The notes under the pieces were generated by a model. That model was not told where the DNA came from and ran no database searches. It saw only the letters and a program-made list of their open reading frames with translations. The position numbers and the translations under genes were made by a program. Below, one piece after another: positions 12,567 to 57,200 of a stretch of 64,000 nucleotides of DNA. Numbering within the stretch: the first letter of the stretch is position 1; the number at the start of each line of letters is the position of its first letter. The stretch is from Salinirubrum litoreum (GTDB lineage Archaea; Halobacteriota; Halobacteria; Halobacteriales; Haloferacaceae), in contig NZ_JAJCVJ010000001.1 in the NCBI RefSeq assembly GCF_020567425.1, positions 1,364,001-1,428,000 on the forward strand. Reading direction: 5' to 3'.

Positions 12567-13275
12567 CGCAAACTCGGTCGAGTGTGTCGCGGACGACGAG
12601 GGGTGAAAGCCCCCGGCGTCTCGACCTCCCGCGACTCGTTGCGCGCTTCCCTCACGAGAGCGCGTCGCTTCGCTCGCGCTCTCGTTTAGTCCAGTGCTTA
12701 CGTCGTCGGGGGAGGATCGAGACGCCGGCCCCTTTCAGTCCCACCCGGAGTTTACGAAAGATCACGTCGCGTGGGTGGTCACCCGGTGAATCGTCTGCGA
12801 GTCTGGAACCCGGTCGTCGCAATCGTCTCCCCTGACCTCCCCGACTGCTGGCGACCGAACTGCGAATCGGTCTTCGCTGTCGCTCAGACACGATTCGGTT
12901 CCGGTCGCCACCAGTTCGCGTCCAATGCGGGTTCCCGGCCGTCGGCGACAGAGTCGGGTGACGAGTGTTGCGTGCGCTCTCATCTCGGTCCCGGCGCGCG
13001 CGAGGAACGTGCGCGAGGGAGAATCGCGGGCGGTGCGGAGAGCGATTCGAGGCTGGGGAGGACCGAGGTGCGGTGCTGTGCGGTGGCGGTTCCTCGCGCT
13101 AGCACGAGTCGCGGTCGCTGTACTGTCGCGGTGGTCGATGCAGTTCGGTGCGCAACGACGAGTAGCGGTGCTGGTGCAGTTCGCGGTGCGGTCGCGGTCT
13201 GCGGTCGGTCTCGTGACCCTGTTGCTCTCACAGCACTGTCCAACCACGCACCCAGCGACACGAACACGACCCAGT
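12567..13275 (+). repeat. Dispersed structured intergenic element, copy 1
   Basis: This fills the 799-bp gap between two convergent genes. Parts in order: a leading motif ending GGACGACGAG (12588-12600); a head inverted repeat with left arm 12603-12624 (GTGAAAGCCCCCGG...) and right arm 12717-12746 (...CCCCTTTCAGTCCCACCC), enclosing a perfect GAGAGCGCG/CGCGCTCTC hairpin; a nested stem TGGCGACCG (12849-12857)/CGGTCGCCA (12902-12910) with inner stem CGAATCG/CGATTCG; the core hairpin GAATCGC (13021-13027), loop GGGCGGTGCGGAGA, GCGATTC (13042-13048); then GAGGCTGGGGAGG and a GCGGT-rich tail with TCGCGCTAGCACGAG. No reading frame is shared with the other copies. The outer limits are estimates. Confidence 0.72.
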
Positions 13276-20419: not shown

Positions 20420-20442
20420 GTTCGATAGGACCCCTCCGCGAC

Positions 20443-20451
20443 CTTTAACGG
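20443..20451 (-). promoter_or_regulatory. TATA box of rpl11
   Basis: CGTTAAAGG on the minus strand, centred about 27 bp ahead of the L11 start at 20419, with an A-rich stretch (gaaagaaaac) just upstream at the position of the TFB-responsive element. Confidence 0.6.
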
Positions 20452-20531
20452 TTTTCTTTCCGCCCTCCCGTGGCAGGACTGGACATGGTACGTGGATGGC
20501 TGGGATGGGTCGGTCGGAAACGGTGGAGACG

Positions 20532-21325
20532 TGAACTCGGCTGGATCGGTTTCGGACGACGAGCGGTGAACACTCCCGAACGATCCGGATTCTGTCGAAC
20601 ATAGCGCAGACGACGAGGGGTGAAAGCCCCCGGCGTCTCGATGGTCCGCGACTTGGTGCGCTCCTCAGTCGGTCGAGCCAGCAAGCTGGCTCTCCCTCCC
20701 TGCGGTGCTAGCCGGCGTCGGGGACCAGTCGAGACGCCGGCCCCTTTCAGTCCCACCCGAACTCTGCGACCCATCACGTCGTCACTGGTCGTCACCCGGC
20801 AAATCGTCGCAGATTCGGAATCCGGGTCGTTCGTACTCCACCACACCTCCCCGACTGCTGAGCGACCGACCTGCGAGCAGGTCCTCGCTGTCGCTCGGAC
20901 ACTGCTCGGTGTCGGTCGCCAGCAGATCGCATCCCGTCGGATTCCGGGTTGTCGTCAAGAGTGTCGGGTGACGAGTGTGGCGTGCGCCTTCATCGAAAAT
21001 TCGGCGCGCGCGAGGAACGCGTGCGAGGGAGGCGGAGGTGGGCGGTGCGGAGAACCCCCGCCGAGGCTGGGGAGGACGAGGTGCGGTGCTGTGCGGTCGC
21101 GGTGGCGGTTCCCCGTGCTAGCACGAGTCGCGGTGTTGTCGCGGTCTGCGGTGTGGTTGCGGATGCGGTTCCTCGCGCTAGCACGAGTAGTGGTGCTGTG
21201 GCGGTCGCGGTTTGTTGTGCAGTAGCAGTCGCAGTCTGGGTGCTAGCACGATCACGGATCACAGTGCTGTCACAATCACCGACGTACCACTCCCCACCAC
21301 AGAAATCGACGAACACGACCCCACG
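20532..21325 (+). repeat. Dispersed structured intergenic element, copy 2
   Basis: This occupies the 915-bp gap between the rpl11 promoter and uppS. The leading motif occurs twice (20551-20567 and 20603-20618). The head inverted repeat has left arm 20619-20641 and right arm 20729-20758, with a different ~87-bp interior from copy 1. The second hairpin set has outer stem GCGACCGAC (20862-20870)/GTCGGTCGC (20911-20919) and inner CGAGCAG/CTGCTCG. The core hairpin is GGCGGAGGT (21031-21039), loop GGGCGGTGCGGAGA (21040-21053), ACCCCCGCC (21054-21062). The tail carries three GCTAGCACGA motifs, two of them within GTGCTAGCAC palindromes (21117-21126, 21240-21249). The limits are estimates. Confidence 0.72.
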
Positions 21326-21334
21326 ATCGCACAC

Positions 21335-22264
21335 CTAATCAGCCGTCTCTCGCTCTTGTGTCTCCAACTCGGCAGTCACCTCGCGCATCCCGGCGCTCGT
21401 CAACTGCTCACGGAGACGCCCGACCAGCGCCCGCCCCTCGGCCAGTTCCGTCTCGCCGAGCGCCCGCACCATCGCCACCGCGCGCTTCGCCTTCGCCTGT
21501 CGCCACGAGTCCTCGCGCGACTCGTAGGTCCGGACCGCCCGGAGGAAGTCGACCTTCGAGAACTCCGGCCAGTAGGGCGCACAGAAGTACACCGCCGCCT
21601 CGTTCCCGTTCGCGTGCCACGGCAGGAAGTTCGAGGTGCGCTCGTCGCCGCCGGTCCGGATGATCAGGTCCACGTCACGCACCGGCCGGTCGTACAGTCG
21701 CGCGTCCACGAGGTCCACGTCCACCGCGTCGGCCGAGAGGTTCCCCTCGCCGACCGCCCGACAGACGTCGCGTGCCGCCCCGAGCAGTTCCTTCCGCCCG
21801 CCGTACGCGAGCGCGACGTTCAGGCGGAACCGGTCGTACCCCTCTGTCCGCGACTCGGCGTACCGCACCGCCTCCTGCACGCGATCCGGGAGCAGATCGA
21901 CCGCACCGATGGCCCGGATGCACACCTCCGAGTCGTGGACTCTGTCGGCGTCCGCGAACTCGTACAGCTTCGACTCCACGAGATCGAACAGCGGCTCCAA
22001 CTCCTCCTCGGGTCTGTCGAAGTTCTCCGTCGAGAAGGCGTACAGCGTCAACTCCTCGATACCCAACTCCTCACACCACTCCAGCACGGCAGAGGTCGTC
22101 TCCGCGCCCGCCCGGTGGCCGTCCGGCGCGTCCCCACCCTGTTGGCGCGCGTACCGCCGGTTGCCGTCCTGGATGATGGCGACGTGGGTCGGCCCGTCAC
22201 CGATCTCCCGCCGGAGGAGTCGCTCGTAACTCCGTGCGACGCCTCGGCGGACCCACTCGATCAT
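21335..22264 (-). CDS. uppS: Cis-prenyltransferase (undecaprenyl/polyprenyl diphosphate synthase)
   Basis: A 309-residue cis-prenyltransferase that elongates allylic diphosphates with IPP to make the dolichol-type carrier for glycosylation. Conserved regions: HVAIIQDGNRRYARQQGGD (region I, catalytic Asp and GNRR), LTLYAFSTENFDRPEEE (region II), LNVALAYGGRKELL (region III), DLIIRTGGDERTSNFLPW (region IV/V, RTxGxxRxSxFLxW) and PYWPEFSKVDFLRAV. Haloarchaea usually have two paralogues; this type ends with a charged helix. It sits where secY would normally follow rpl15, with element 2 behind it. Confidence 0.94.
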   Translation of the reverse strand: MIEWVRRGVARSYERLLRREIGDGPTHVAIIQDGNRRYARQQGGDAPDGHRAGAETTSAVLEWCEELGIEELTLYAFSTENFDRPEEELEPLFDLVESKLYEFADADRVHDSEVCIRAIGAVDLLPDRVQEAVRYAESRTEGYDRFRLNVALAYGGRKELLGAARDVCRAVGEGNLSADAVDVDLVDARLYDRPVRDVDLIIRTGGDERTSNFLPWHANGNEAAVYFCAPYWPEFSKVDFLRAVRTYESREDSWRQAKAKRAVAMVRALGETELAEGRALVGRLREQLTSAGMREVTAELETQERETAD

Positions 22265-34456: not shown

Positions 34457-35311
34457 TCACTCCGTGAGTGTCAGGGACGCGAGCGACGCGAACATCGCTT
34501 CCTCCGTTCGCACCACCCCGCTTCCCTGTCGCGGAATCGTATTCAGCCAGAGGTCGAACCCCGCAGGACCGGGTTCGACGTTCTCGGCTCCGTCCCACCG
34601 CGGTCGGTGGGCGGTCACGTCCTCGACTGACACGTCGAGGATCTCCGGAAGCCCTCTCTCGGGCGACCCGAACGCGACTGTCATGTCGCGGTCGGCCCGG
34701 CCGGCCAGTGTCGCCAGCCGCGAGACGGACAGTTCCTGCCCGTGTCGCGACGTGGCGATCCGCACACCGGCACCCTCACGGCCGAGTGCTTCCGGGAGGT
34801 CCACGCGTTCGACGACGAACCCCGGGGGGTCGCCGTCCACGATTCGCGCGCGGACCGGTTCTCTCGAAGAGACCCTGATGGTGACGCGCTCCCCCACCTC
34901 GACCCCGTCGGGGGCGAAGAGGGAGATCGGGTGTTGCAGTCCGCAATTGACCCGAACGCGGCCGTCAGGTCCGACCTCGGTCACGATTCCCTGTCTCAGC
35001 TCCGATCCCTCCGGATCGGAACCGGTCTCCGTGAGCGCGCGGAGCGGCGGCAAGACACCGACGTACTCCAGTTCGTCCCGGACGCCCCACGCCTCCTTTC
35101 GGAGGTACGGCGGCGTCGCGGCGTACCGCAAGACGGTGTCGACGAACCCGCCGCCCCACCGACCCTCGCCTTCCCGGTCCGGGAAGACACAGAGGCGATC
35201 CGCCCGAAACACCGTCGCCGCGCGGGCGACGTAGCCGAGTTTGCGGGTCGCCTCCCGCTTGTCTTCGGCTTCTCGGACGAGGGACGACGGCACGAGTACG
35301 CTGAGTGTCAT
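34457..35311 (-). CDS. SPOUT-family putative RNA uridine N3 methyltransferase
   Basis: A 284-residue protein of the COG2106/DUF171 SPOUT family. MTLSVLVPSSLVREAEDKRE, GYVARAATVFRADRLCVFPD, RYAATPPYLRKEAWGVRDEL, and an S-adenosylmethionine-binding trefoil knot near the end. An OB-like insertion (RQGIVTEVGPDGRVRVNCGL) splits the domain, as in the family. It heads the S10 operon in many archaea, linking rRNA modification to ribosome synthesis; the target nucleotide is not known to me. A TATA box at 35363-35371 lies upstream, giving a short leader. Confidence 0.85.
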   Translation of the reverse strand: MTLSVLVPSSLVREAEDKREATRKLGYVARAATVFRADRLCVFPDREGEGRWGGGFVDTVLRYAATPPYLRKEAWGVRDELEYVGVLPPLRALTETGSDPEGSELRQGIVTEVGPDGRVRVNCGLQHPISLFAPDGVEVGERVTIRVSSREPVRARIVDGDPPGFVVERVDLPEALGREGAGVRIATSRHGQELSVSRLATLAGRADRDMTVAFGSPERGLPEILDVSVEDVTAHRPRWDGAENVEPGPAGFDLWLNTIPRQGSGVVRTEEAMFASLASLTLTE

Positions 35312-37927: not shown

Positions 37928-38690
37928 GGCGTGAACTCTGTCGAGTCGGTCGCGGACGACGAGAGGAGGTGAAAGCCCCCGGCCCCTTTGAGTCCCACCC
38001 GTCGAACTCTGCGACCCATCGTGCAACTCGCGGTGGACCAGTCGCTTTCAGCGTGCGCGCCTCCCTGCGACCGTCGGCGTGCCTGAGGCGGCCTCACGCC
38101 GCCGAAGTGCCCGAGATGAACGCGCGCCAGCCCGTTCGACTGGTGGGTGTGATGTGAGTCGGACCCTCCGGTCAGGTGTTGCGGTGCGGTGCTGTCGGCG
38201 CGCGCGGCTTGACGCGTGCGAGGGAGGGGTCGCGGGCGGTGCGGAGAGCGTCCTCGTGAGGGAACCGAACGAGGGCTGGCAAGAGCTTCGCTCTTGCTCT
38301 GACCCCGAGGCTGGGGAGGTTCGAGGTGCTGTCGCGGTCGCGGTGCGGTTCCTCGCGCTAGCAATCGTAGCGGTGCTGTCGTGGTCGCGGTCTGCGGTGC
38401 TGTCGCGGTCGCGGTCTGCTGTGCTGTCGTGGTCGCGGTCTGCGGTGCTGTCGCGGTCGCGGTCTGCGGTGCTGTCGTGGTCGCGGTCTGCGGTGCTGTC
38501 GGCGGTCTGCTGTGCTGTCGTGGTCGCGGTCTGCGGTGCTGTCGTGGTCGCGGTCTGCGGTGCTGTCGCGGTCGCGGTCTGCGGTGCTGTCGGCGGTCTG
38601 CTGTGCTGGCACGGTCACGGGTCGCAACGCGGTCGCAGTAGCTATCGCGGATGCTGATCTGATTACCGCCGACAGTCACGACACACGTAC
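37928..38690 (+). repeat. Dispersed structured intergenic element, copy 3
   Basis: It fills nearly all of the 875-bp gap after the BrkB gene. The leading motif CGCGGACGACGAG (37951-37963) is followed by head arms fused back to back (37969-38000), lacking the interior seen in copies 1 and 2. A long-range stem ACCAGTCG (38037-38044)/CGACTGGT (38137-38144) encloses a GGCGGC-CTCAC-GCCGCC hairpin (38087-38103). The core hairpin GGGGTCGC (38226-38233), loop GGGCGGTGCGGAGA, GCG...ACCCC (to 38306) has a 51-nt insertion in the 3' arm. The insertion has its own hairpin (GCAAGAG-CTTCG-CTCTTGC). A 24-bp tandem repeat tail follows. Limits are approximate. Confidence 0.72.
38366..38608. repeat. 24-bp tandem repeat array in element 3 tail
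   Basis: About ten units of a 24-bp sequence close to GGTCGCGGTCTGCGGTGCTG plus TCGY, with two units shortened to about 18 bp (GCTGTCGGCGGTCTG). The unit is a multiple of three, so several frames stay open on both strands, giving meaningless Arg/Pro/Gln- or Asp/Ser-rich readings. There are no spacers, so it is not a CRISPR array. Confidence 0.75.
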
Positions 38691-38703: not shown

Positions 38704-39822
38704 TCACGACCGGAGTTTCCGATAGACAAGCGTCGGGAAGCGCGGCACGACGCCGCTCGGTCCGTGTTCGTTCTCGCCGATCTCGACGCGCTGGAGGATG
38801 CCGTCTTCCGCGAGTTCGTAGAGGAACCGGGTCACCGTGCCCGCCGAGAGGTCCATGTCCGCCGAGACCGTCTTGGCGATGGTCTCGATACTCCCCGACG
38901 CGCCACCCTCCAGCAGGGCGTCGAGCACCGCCTGTCGGTTCTCCGGGAGCGAGAGGACCCGACCGACCGGGACGCCGTCACGGGGGACACCCTCCATCCC
39001 GCGTCTGACGTGGCGGACCGACAGGTTCGGCATGTCCTCGTGGTCCGCGATCGTCGCCGCGCCGAACAGCGCCGACAGCGCGTCGCTCGCGTCGCCCTCC
39101 GCCCAGTCCGCGATACGCTCGGCGGTTCCCTGTGCCAGTCCGCCGCGGAGCCCGCGCGACCCACGGGACATGAGCACCTCGGTCAGCATCGAGTCGCGGT
39201 ACGCCGACACCGGGAGCGAGGGGACCGCGTCGTCCGCGACCCGCGAGACCGTCACGGTCGTCACGGGGCCGTCGACCGACGCGAACAGGTCCCGCGCGCG
39301 TTGCGGGGTCGGCGTCCGAGGCTCCGCGAGGTGATCCAGCGCGACGACCAGTCTCCGGTGAGAGCCGAGTTCGTCGCTCAGCTTCGAGCGGAGCGTCTCC
39401 GTGCTGACGCCGCGTTCCGGCACCGAGTCGTCGCGGACCGAGGCGAGCACCGCCCGGTAGACCCGGAAGGGACTCGCCGCTCGCCGGGCGTCCACGCAGA
39501 CGAACTCGACGTCCCGATCCGCGCCGTTGGCGCGCGTCGTCGTCTGGATCGGTGCGTGCGCGCCGCCGAGTTGGGTCGAGAGTTCCGAGAACAGGCCGAC
39601 CAGCACCGCCGACTTCCCGGTCCCGCCCGGGCCGTGGACGTGGAAGTCAGCGGGGAGGTCGCCCGAGAAGACCGGTTCCAGGCGATCCAGCAGGCGCTCT
39701 AGGACTGCTCCGCGTCCAACCGGCGAGTCCGGGTGAACGACGGGGGAGAGCGAACTCCACGCCGTCACGAGGCGGTCGTCGTCGACCGCCCGCCTGCGCG
39801 CGACGCGCTCGGGGAGGTCCAT
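38704..39822 (-). CDS. Orc1/Cdc6-like AAA+ ATPase
   Basis: About 372 residues from MDLPERVARRRAVDDDRLVT; an ATG at 39834 would add four. Walker A is HVHGPGGTGKSAVLVGLF near residue 68. The Walker B equivalent LVVALDHLAE has Asp-His rather than Asp-Asp/Glu. A C-terminal winged-helix domain (ADMDLSAGTVTRFLYELAED) ends the protein, as in Cdc6/Orc1. The TATA box (ggattatacc, 39845-39854) favours 39822 as a leaderless start. It may be a divergent initiator paralogue with a non-initiator role; no obvious origin repeats lie upstream. Confidence 0.75.
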   Translation of the reverse strand: MDLPERVARRRAVDDDRLVTAWSSLSPVVHPDSPVGRGAVLERLLDRLEPVFSGDLPADFHVHGPGGTGKSAVLVGLFSELSTQLGGAHAPIQTTTRANGADRDVEFVCVDARRAASPFRVYRAVLASVRDDSVPERGVSTETLRSKLSDELGSHRRLVVALDHLAEPRTPTPQRARDLFASVDGPVTTVTVSRVADDAVPSLPVSAYRDSMLTEVLMSRGSRGLRGGLAQGTAERIADWAEGDASDALSALFGAATIADHEDMPNLSVRHVRRGMEGVPRDGVPVGRVLSLPENRQAVLDALLEGGASGSIETIAKTVSADMDLSAGTVTRFLYELAEDGILQRVEIGENEHGPSGVVPRFPTLVYRKLRS

Positions 39823-39969
39823 CACCGGATTCATGCGTCAGCGCGGTATAATCCTATCCCTCGCGCCTGCGACACTCGTCATCGTACCTTCGACTCGGGC
39901 CTGACGACCGTGAAGTTGACGGATCGTGGTCACCGATGGGACGCTCCCGGCGACCGCCGAGAGCGTCGA

Positions 39970-56639: not shown

Positions 56640-57200
56640 GGAGATCGGGGGTTCGGGTGTGAGGGCTGTGACTGTATCGTGGACTGTGACTGCTACTGCG
56701 ACCACTACTGCACCGCAGACCGCGACAGCATCCGCACCGCAGACTGCGACAGCACCGCGACTCGATCCGGGACAACCGGAATATTCGACCGCATCCGCAC
56801 AGCACCGCGACCGCGTCAGCACCGCACCTCAGTCCCCCCAACCTCGGGTGGCTCTCCGCACCGCCCGCCACCCTCCCTCGCGCGTTGCTCGCGCGCCGAC
56901 CGCAACCGCACTGCGACAGCCGAACTGAATTCCCGACTCACGTCACACGCACCAGTCGAGTGGGCTGGCGCGACACCTCGGCGGCGTGGGGCCGCCTCGC
57001 GCGACCTCCCTGTCGCGCACCTCGGCGGCGCAGGGCCGCCTCGGGCGACGCCGACGGTCACAGGGAGGCGCTCGCGCTGAAATCGACTGGTCCACCGGCC
57101 GTTGCGTGCGCTTTCGCAGAAGCCACCGGGTGGGACTGAAAGGGGCCGGCGTCTCCAACTCACCCGACAGGAGCTACCTCGAAGACCGAGTGTCCCGCGA
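56640..57200 (-). repeat. Dispersed structured intergenic element, copy 4 (inverted)
   Basis: It occupies most of the 749-bp gap between GT4 and tbsP in opposite orientation to copies 1-3. Read leftward: head right arm only (57156-57128, ...CCCCTTTCAGTCCCACCC), stem CGACTGGT (57084-57091)/ACCAGTCG (56951-56958), a CCTCCCTGT (57005-57013)/ACAGGGAGG (57060-57068) stem, and two GGCGGC-N5-GCCGCC hairpins (57024-57040, 56980-56996). Then the core hairpin with stem GGGTGGC/GCCACCC (56846-56873 including the loop), GAGGTTGGGG, and a GCGGT/CAGT-rich tail to about 56645. The left head arm is missing. Confidence 0.72.

Follow-up and report, generated by a model that had tools for sequence, protein, structure and literature searches.

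A dispersed family of two-module hairpin repeats in the intergenic DNA of haloarchaea

REP sequences, BIMEs and REPINs are extragenic, palindromic hairpin mosaics of high copy number, which form inverted doublets and are present at some orthologous sites and absent from others. Their unit measures about 20–60 nt and carries a GTAG/GGAG-type foot. Among haloarchaea, the PATEs of Haloquadratum are dispersed, non-coding and heterogeneous, contain palindromes and include core-deleted forms (PMC3119063). Two further kinds of sequence have to be considered as well, namely MITEs, which are short, non-coding and multicopy, and the large structured non-coding RNAs of bacteria and archaea with their covarying stems and invariant loops and junctions. 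The family described here, from a 64,000-nt stretch of the genome of Salinirubrum litoreum (hereafter the window), resembles each of these in the traits just named, apart from unit length and foot, and yet differs from all of them. Compared to REPs, BIMEs and REPINs, the elements are larger (about 340–800 bp), their modules comprise about 85–270 nt with long conserved unpaired motifs of their own, and they occur throughout the Halobacteria. No convincing link to an IS605-type gene was found in the genomes tested, which separates the family from PATEs by their description (PMC3119063). In contrast to MITEs, no terminal inverted repeat is visible by eye when the left border (GCGGTGGCGCG) is compared with the right end, which is ragged and carries tandem tail units, nor does the family have a demonstrated parent transposase. 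Finally, unlike large structured RNAs, the main stems are almost devoid of G.U pairs, about 100 divergent copies exist per genome, orthologous sites can be empty and Rfam yields no match. By behavior, REPINs and PATEs remain the closest kinds, and we class the family with the mosaic palindromic repeats of extragenic DNA, though there is a real chance that it represents something more distinct. It is real, of high copy number and class-wide, and apparently undescribed in the literature searched.

Four stretches of the window are copies of this one dispersed, non-coding family. All coordinates refer to the window (contig coordinate minus 1364000). The head motif CCCCTTTSAGTCCCACCC occurs at 12729–12746, 20741–20758 and 37983–38000 on the plus strand and at 57128–57145 on the minus strand, and the core loop GGGCGGTGCGGAGA at 13028–13041, 21040–21053 and 38234–38247 (plus) and at 56853–56866 (minus). 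A search with copy 1 recovered copy 2 (E=6e-83; identity of 75% along its length) and matched about 40 further places in the same genome.

Copy 1 starts with a head module, H (12603–12746, minus strand), which includes the head motif and whose motif order is the same in its own genome, in a second genus designated g2 and in other genera. Read on the minus strand, it consists of GGGTGGGACTGAAAGGGGC, a variable stem, GACGTAAGCACTG, a hairpin, GCGCAACGAG, a stem and GGGGGCTTTCAC. Next comes the type A middle (12747–12991, plus), in which CCTCCCCGACTGCTGGCGAC and a long hairpin are found; it is supported by an alignment of 31 type A copies. The core module, C (12992–13077, plus), is supported by covariation and by a match to our covariance model R1 (98.7 bits, E=2.0e-23); it is composed of a GC hairpin, GAGGGAG, an AATCGC/GCGATT stem bearing the core loop, and GAGGCTGGGGAGG. 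The low-complexity, GCGGT-rich tail (13078–13210, plus) was delimited by eye, and its conserved portion is GAGGTGCGGTGCTGT. In copy 2, a half-unit GACGACGAGCGGTGAACACTCCC (about 20556–20580) lies immediately upstream of H (20620–20758, minus), followed on the plus strand by a type A middle (20759–21001), a core with the stem GGCGGAGGT/ACCCCCGCC (21002–21090, E=8.1e-18) and the GCGGT-rich tail (21091–21260).

The preliminary description had held that all four copies contain the same parts in the same order. The places were right, whereas the parts are incomplete in copies 3 and 4. The head of copy 3 (37969–38000, minus) is collapsed: its two H ends are joined without a hairpin, so that GGTGAAAGCCCCC is fused straight to GGCCCCTTTGAG. 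It is followed on the plus strand by a type B middle with an GACCAGTCGCTTTCAGCG...CGACTGG domain (38001–38195), a core whose second stem carries two extra inserted hairpins (38196–38335, E=9.7e-13) and an expanded GCGGT-rich tail (38336–38640). Copy 4 is without the CGCGGACGACGAG lead and without the 5' arm, and only the GAGACGCCGGCCCCTTTCAGTCCCACCC side is left of its truncated head (57128–57156, plus, which is here the H strand). Its type B middle (56899–57127), its core with a GGGTGGC/GCCACCC stem (56818–56898, E=1.1e-18) and its GCGGT-rich tail (56660–56817) are on the minus strand. The proposed division into one middle shared by copies 1 and 2 and another shared by copies 3 and 4 stood, and both types recur throughout the genome. 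The claim that the copies occupy the only large non-coding gaps was partly right: a crude ORF call places them in four gaps of 730–1190 bp, but the stretch at 50.1–52.0 kb is also without a clear gene and includes a tRNA at 51.83–51.90 kb. That no open frame is shared was borne out, as translated copies match each other by BLASTP in many frames and on both strands, which fits similarity at the DNA level in non-coding sequence. As a side note, heads with the entire hairpin deleted between the arms were seen at three further loci (L045, L058 and L066) besides copy 3, and they resemble core-deleted PATEs.

Many copies per genome had been suspected from the density in the window, and about 100 are indeed present in this 4.06-Mb genome. 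The covariance-model search suggested at the time was performed with R1, which comprises 14 sequences and 85 positions, at a threshold of E≤0.01. It gave 106 core matches in the strain's own genome; the two largest contigs, C1 and C2, account for 101, C4 for three and C3 for two. Allowing up to two mismatches, head motifs were found 90 times, compared to once for the reversed pattern; core loops with up to one mismatch numbered 74, compared to 6 for the reversed control. Among copies with an identifiable end, 31 are of type A and 22 of type B. Two findings had been named beforehand as speaking against the family, a lack of further copies and a protein frame common to all; neither was encountered. 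One might object that the similarity merely reflects chance among GC-rich simple repeats, given the low-complexity GCGGT repeat of the tail and the high GC content of the genome. However, the reversed controls refute this, and covariation of the core (alignment A2) is far above that of shuffled alignments, with a score of 0.487 against 0.121 after shuffling and at most 0.097 with slid partners. We consider such a chance origin to be practically negligible.

Sequence comparison resolves the family into two directional and separable hairpin modules that are combined as a mosaic, a property which adds to the preliminary description along with the class-wide range and the filled and empty orthologous sites reported below. 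On its own strand, H reads GTGGGACTGAAAGGGG, a variable stem, GACGNAAGCACYG, at least one hairpin, GCGCARCGAG, a stem and GGGGCTTTC; judging from the sequence, the four G runs of this module might fold into a quadruplex that surrounds the hairpin. On the core strand, C reads GC hairpin, GAGGGAG, second hairpin and GAGGCTGGGGAGG, after which GAGGTGCGGTGCTGT leads into the GCGGT-rich tail. In the genome of the window, the second core hairpin usually bears the loop GGGCGGTGCGGAGA, a middle of type A or B lies upstream of the core, and H, in the opposite direction, precedes the middle. In genus g2 the order is different, as C precedes H and both point the same way; the left border is sharp, at GCGGTGGCGCG(T/C)GCC, and the right end carries tandem tail units GCGGCTGGGGCTTCGGCGGT. 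At this right end, up to four such units with a period of 51 or 66–69 bp were observed (L193, L187, L119 and similar loci), some of them with TTTATAAA boxes. In other families H occurs alone or in back-to-back pairs about 25 bp apart, and at one locus (f6/g30, L224) the loop GGGCGGTGCGGAGA resides within an H hairpin instead of a core hairpin. Head, core and hairpins are thus separable parts.

The direction of the H interior is kept. Among 117 classified H copies, 98 were normal, three were flagged as inverted or both by loose patterns, 15 had no recognised interior and one was collapsed, which argues for one acting strand. At the L181 locus of G006 (L285), the hairpin interior is inverted relative to the arms, as recombination between inverted arms would produce. 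Frequent inversion, which we had suspected from this site, is not general, given the 98 normal copies against three flagged ones.

Motif searches indicate that the family is spread across the whole class Halobacteria. Of 81 sampled genomes of the class, 45 contain the H motif GGGACTSRAAGGGGC, the highest number of exact matches being 151 (G027). Among genomes from the other classes of the phylum, the motif was present in 4 of 311, which equals the chance level of the reversed control. R1 matched 151 of 391 class genomes and reached about ten or more matches per genome in nearly all g2 genomes, while single matches near E=1e-3 outside g2 may be due to chance. The single-contig g2 genome G206 alone comprises 132 core matches. 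We take g2 to be probably Halorubrum, because a plasmid of Halorubrum salinarum matches a g2 copy at 82.9%. In addition, plasmids from 19 haloarchaeal genera carry H. Viral contigs (IMG/VR) gave no match to the exact core and H patterns, nor did phage records to the exact H pattern, and the syntenic 21 kb of Haloferax larsenii contain neither H head nor core loop.

To follow individual sites, we searched 39 g2 genomes with the sequences flanking G206 copies; the relatives of the window's own genome included none of its genus. At two intergenic sites, some species hold the element, while others, with flanks that are 81–91% identical, lack it. The L178 locus is filled in G206, G176, G399 and G201. 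It is empty in G011, with an uninterrupted match at 91% identity, and in G284, G147, G372 and G343; in all five, the two genes lie close together with a short, unrelated spacer. The L173 locus is filled in G206, G006 and G399 and empty in G224, G152, G103 and G038, while G201 has a remnant-like stretch. The intergenic flanks at these sites are too diverged to show the exact ends of the element or a target duplication, which is expected of MITEs but not of PATEs. Nevertheless, the pattern points to insertion rather than to repeated clean loss, with the filled state being presumably derived.

In the genome of the window, 15 copies lie between convergent, 12 between divergent and 27 between tandem genes. 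There is thus no orientation rule, which led us to reject a cis-regulatory leader of downstream genes and fits mobile elements. The copies might still serve the host as DNA sites under selection, either as binding sites or as insulators or terminators, for gyrase, a nucleoid protein or polymerase. Their intergenic position would agree with this, as would the distribution of core matches over C1 and C2 with few on C3, and the conserved G-rich motifs, for which a quadruplex is possible in principle. However, genera differ in copy number between 0 and about 150, empty orthologous sites are frequent and convergent genes are not preferred. Taken together, such a role seems quite improbable.

As to the evolution of the stems, the short unpaired motifs are kept between genera, while the stems are rewritten and yet remain nearly perfect in Watson–Crick pairing. 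The second core stem varies in sequence among copies (AATCGC, GCCACC, GGGACC, CCGGATGC, GCAGACGC and others), its pairing being almost faultless. Counts of Watson–Crick, G.T, A.C and other cells in this stem are 464/3/3/3 for the own genome, 300/1/2/1 for G206 and 235/4/0/1 for other genomes; the H stems comprise 720, 12, 9 and 19 such cells. RNA stems normally tolerate G.U pairs on the acting strand. The scarcity of G.U and the strand-symmetrical, near-perfect pairing suggest that, at the level of DNA, whole hairpins are retained or exchanged as blocks, rather than changed by stepwise RNA compensation. Furthermore, middle type, head arm and core stem yield 10, 10 and 3 four-gamete sets, and such a multitude of combinations indicates that parts are exchanged between copies. 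The orthologous L181 site, filled in most species fetched, has the same anchors with different hairpins. GCGAAGC is a DNA mini-hairpin known for its stability. On the motif strand of g2 copies it outnumbers its complement by 41:2 in C and by 20:5 in H, although this asymmetry may merely reflect the purine bias of the strand.

Other features resemble RNA. The core, perhaps together with H, could give rise to a structured non-coding RNA of many copies, with a TATA box close by driving its transcription, and this RNA would fold, act as such and spread like an archaeal SINE. Suggestively, 18 of 43 g2-type copies have a TATA-like box no more than 40 nt upstream of the sharp left border, compared to 7 of 387 background windows. 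Folding is more stable for the forward than for the reverse strand (mean of −85.6 against −71.0 kcal/mol in G206), and the first GC hairpin of the core shows an excess of G.T over A.C (25 against 1 in the own genome). The unpaired motifs kept between genera and the constant direction of the H interior would suit an RNA as well. However, the distance from TATA box to border varies from 10 to 21 nt, more than half of the copies are without a TATA-like box, and the main stems are almost free of G.U. Moreover, the closely paired heads of some genera leave no room for promoters. We therefore regard an RNA, the main rival reading, as possible but doubtful, and single-stranded DNA as the more plausible acting form; the scarcity of G.U, the empty sites, the back-to-back heads and the preference for GCGAAGC on the motif strand speak for DNA, while the G.T excess in the first core hairpin and the better folding of the forward strand speak against it.

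The earlier statement that no known element or RNA explains the family was upheld by the lack of an Rfam match, of a common frame and of an earlier description of these repeats in the literature searched. Rfam 15 gave no match over the elements of the window at gathering score, and for eight loci at relaxed threshold only one chance miRNA match (E=0.61). A CRISPR array was rejected, since regular identical repeats with spacers are lacking and the tail units of g2 are diverged. The 5' motif of H, GTGGGACTGAAAG (e.g., L227:655–671), agrees in 11 of 13 positions with the end of a haloarchaeal CRISPR repeat, GTGGGATTGAAGC, a resemblance which may be due to chance.

Candidate mobilizing proteins were sought at Y1 and TnpB loci, and none was convincing. 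Only 5 of 30 TnpB loci contain an H or C motif, at varying distances, the other 25 having none in the stretch examined, so that a link to TnpB is unsupported. The same applies to Y1 transposases: 10 of 11 loci lack both motifs in the stretch examined, in the remaining one H and C lie at a distance of over 1 kb, and Y1 is absent from two copy-rich genomes, G006 (70 H motifs) and G009 (82 H motifs). In contrast to REPs, BIMEs and REPINs, no RAYT-like Y1 gene is flanked by copies of the family. These results set the family apart from PATEs in their published description and from REPINs that depend on a RAYT. The elements could nevertheless be decayed relatives of IS605-type transposons, as PATEs of Haloquadratum share their dispersed, non-coding, heterogeneous and palindromic nature and their core-deleted forms (PMC3119063), to which the collapsed head of copy 3 is similar. 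With most TnpB and Y1 loci free of the motifs, the others at inconsistent distances and Y1 missing from copy-rich genomes, we deem this descent very unlikely.

The reading that we favor, at slightly less than an even chance, is that of a non-autonomous REPIN/BIME-like hairpin element, composed of H and C, which is moved in trans in single-stranded DNA form by a putative protein. It would be comparable to REPINs and BIMEs, but larger and equipped with conserved unpaired motifs. One strand of the element would fold into strong hairpins when single-stranded, and a host or plasmid protein, the existence of which we infer, would recognize the short unpaired motifs beside these hairpins and move or copy the element into intergenic DNA. 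Resident copies would then swap hairpins by recombination or template switching, and such swapping could explain why stems differ between copies and species and still stay perfectly paired. The roughly 100 copies, the class-wide spread, the filled and empty sites, the reassortment of parts and the conserved direction of the H interior speak for a mobile element; the failure to find a mobilizing protein, with Y1 missing from G006 and G009, speaks against it. One might speculate further, with rather low confidence, that the family is a class-wide archaeal selfish element in which nothing is conserved but a strand-specific fold and a few short unpaired motifs, with a putative protein that propagates it by reading single-stranded hairpins and with continual hairpin swapping between copies, or else the RNA version thereof, a SINE-like multicopy structured RNA.

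If the elements are mobile, haloarchaeal intergenic regions would contain a largely unannotated, class-wide family of mobile hairpins. From copy number and length we estimate that it makes up roughly 1–2% of some genomes, and it would have consequences for assembly, gene calling and the mapping of transcripts. It might also serve as a natural model for the maintenance and exchange of perfect palindromes in archaea, and its conserved motifs would offer a direct handle for capturing the putative recognizing protein.

Some aspects of the surroundings of the window copies deserve mention as well. The region of copy 2 (20430–21335) lies between the gene for ribosomal protein L11 and a prenyltransferase gene, directly upstream of the former, and copy 2 may be situated in or adjoining the L11 promoter. 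The gene next to copy 3 (38704–39834, minus strand) encodes an AAA ATPase with a weak match to a Cdc6 lid. At 34875–34968 (minus strand), the window of this haloarchaeon contains a strong Rfam match (75.5 bits) to the L4-Archaeoglobi ribosomal protein leader.
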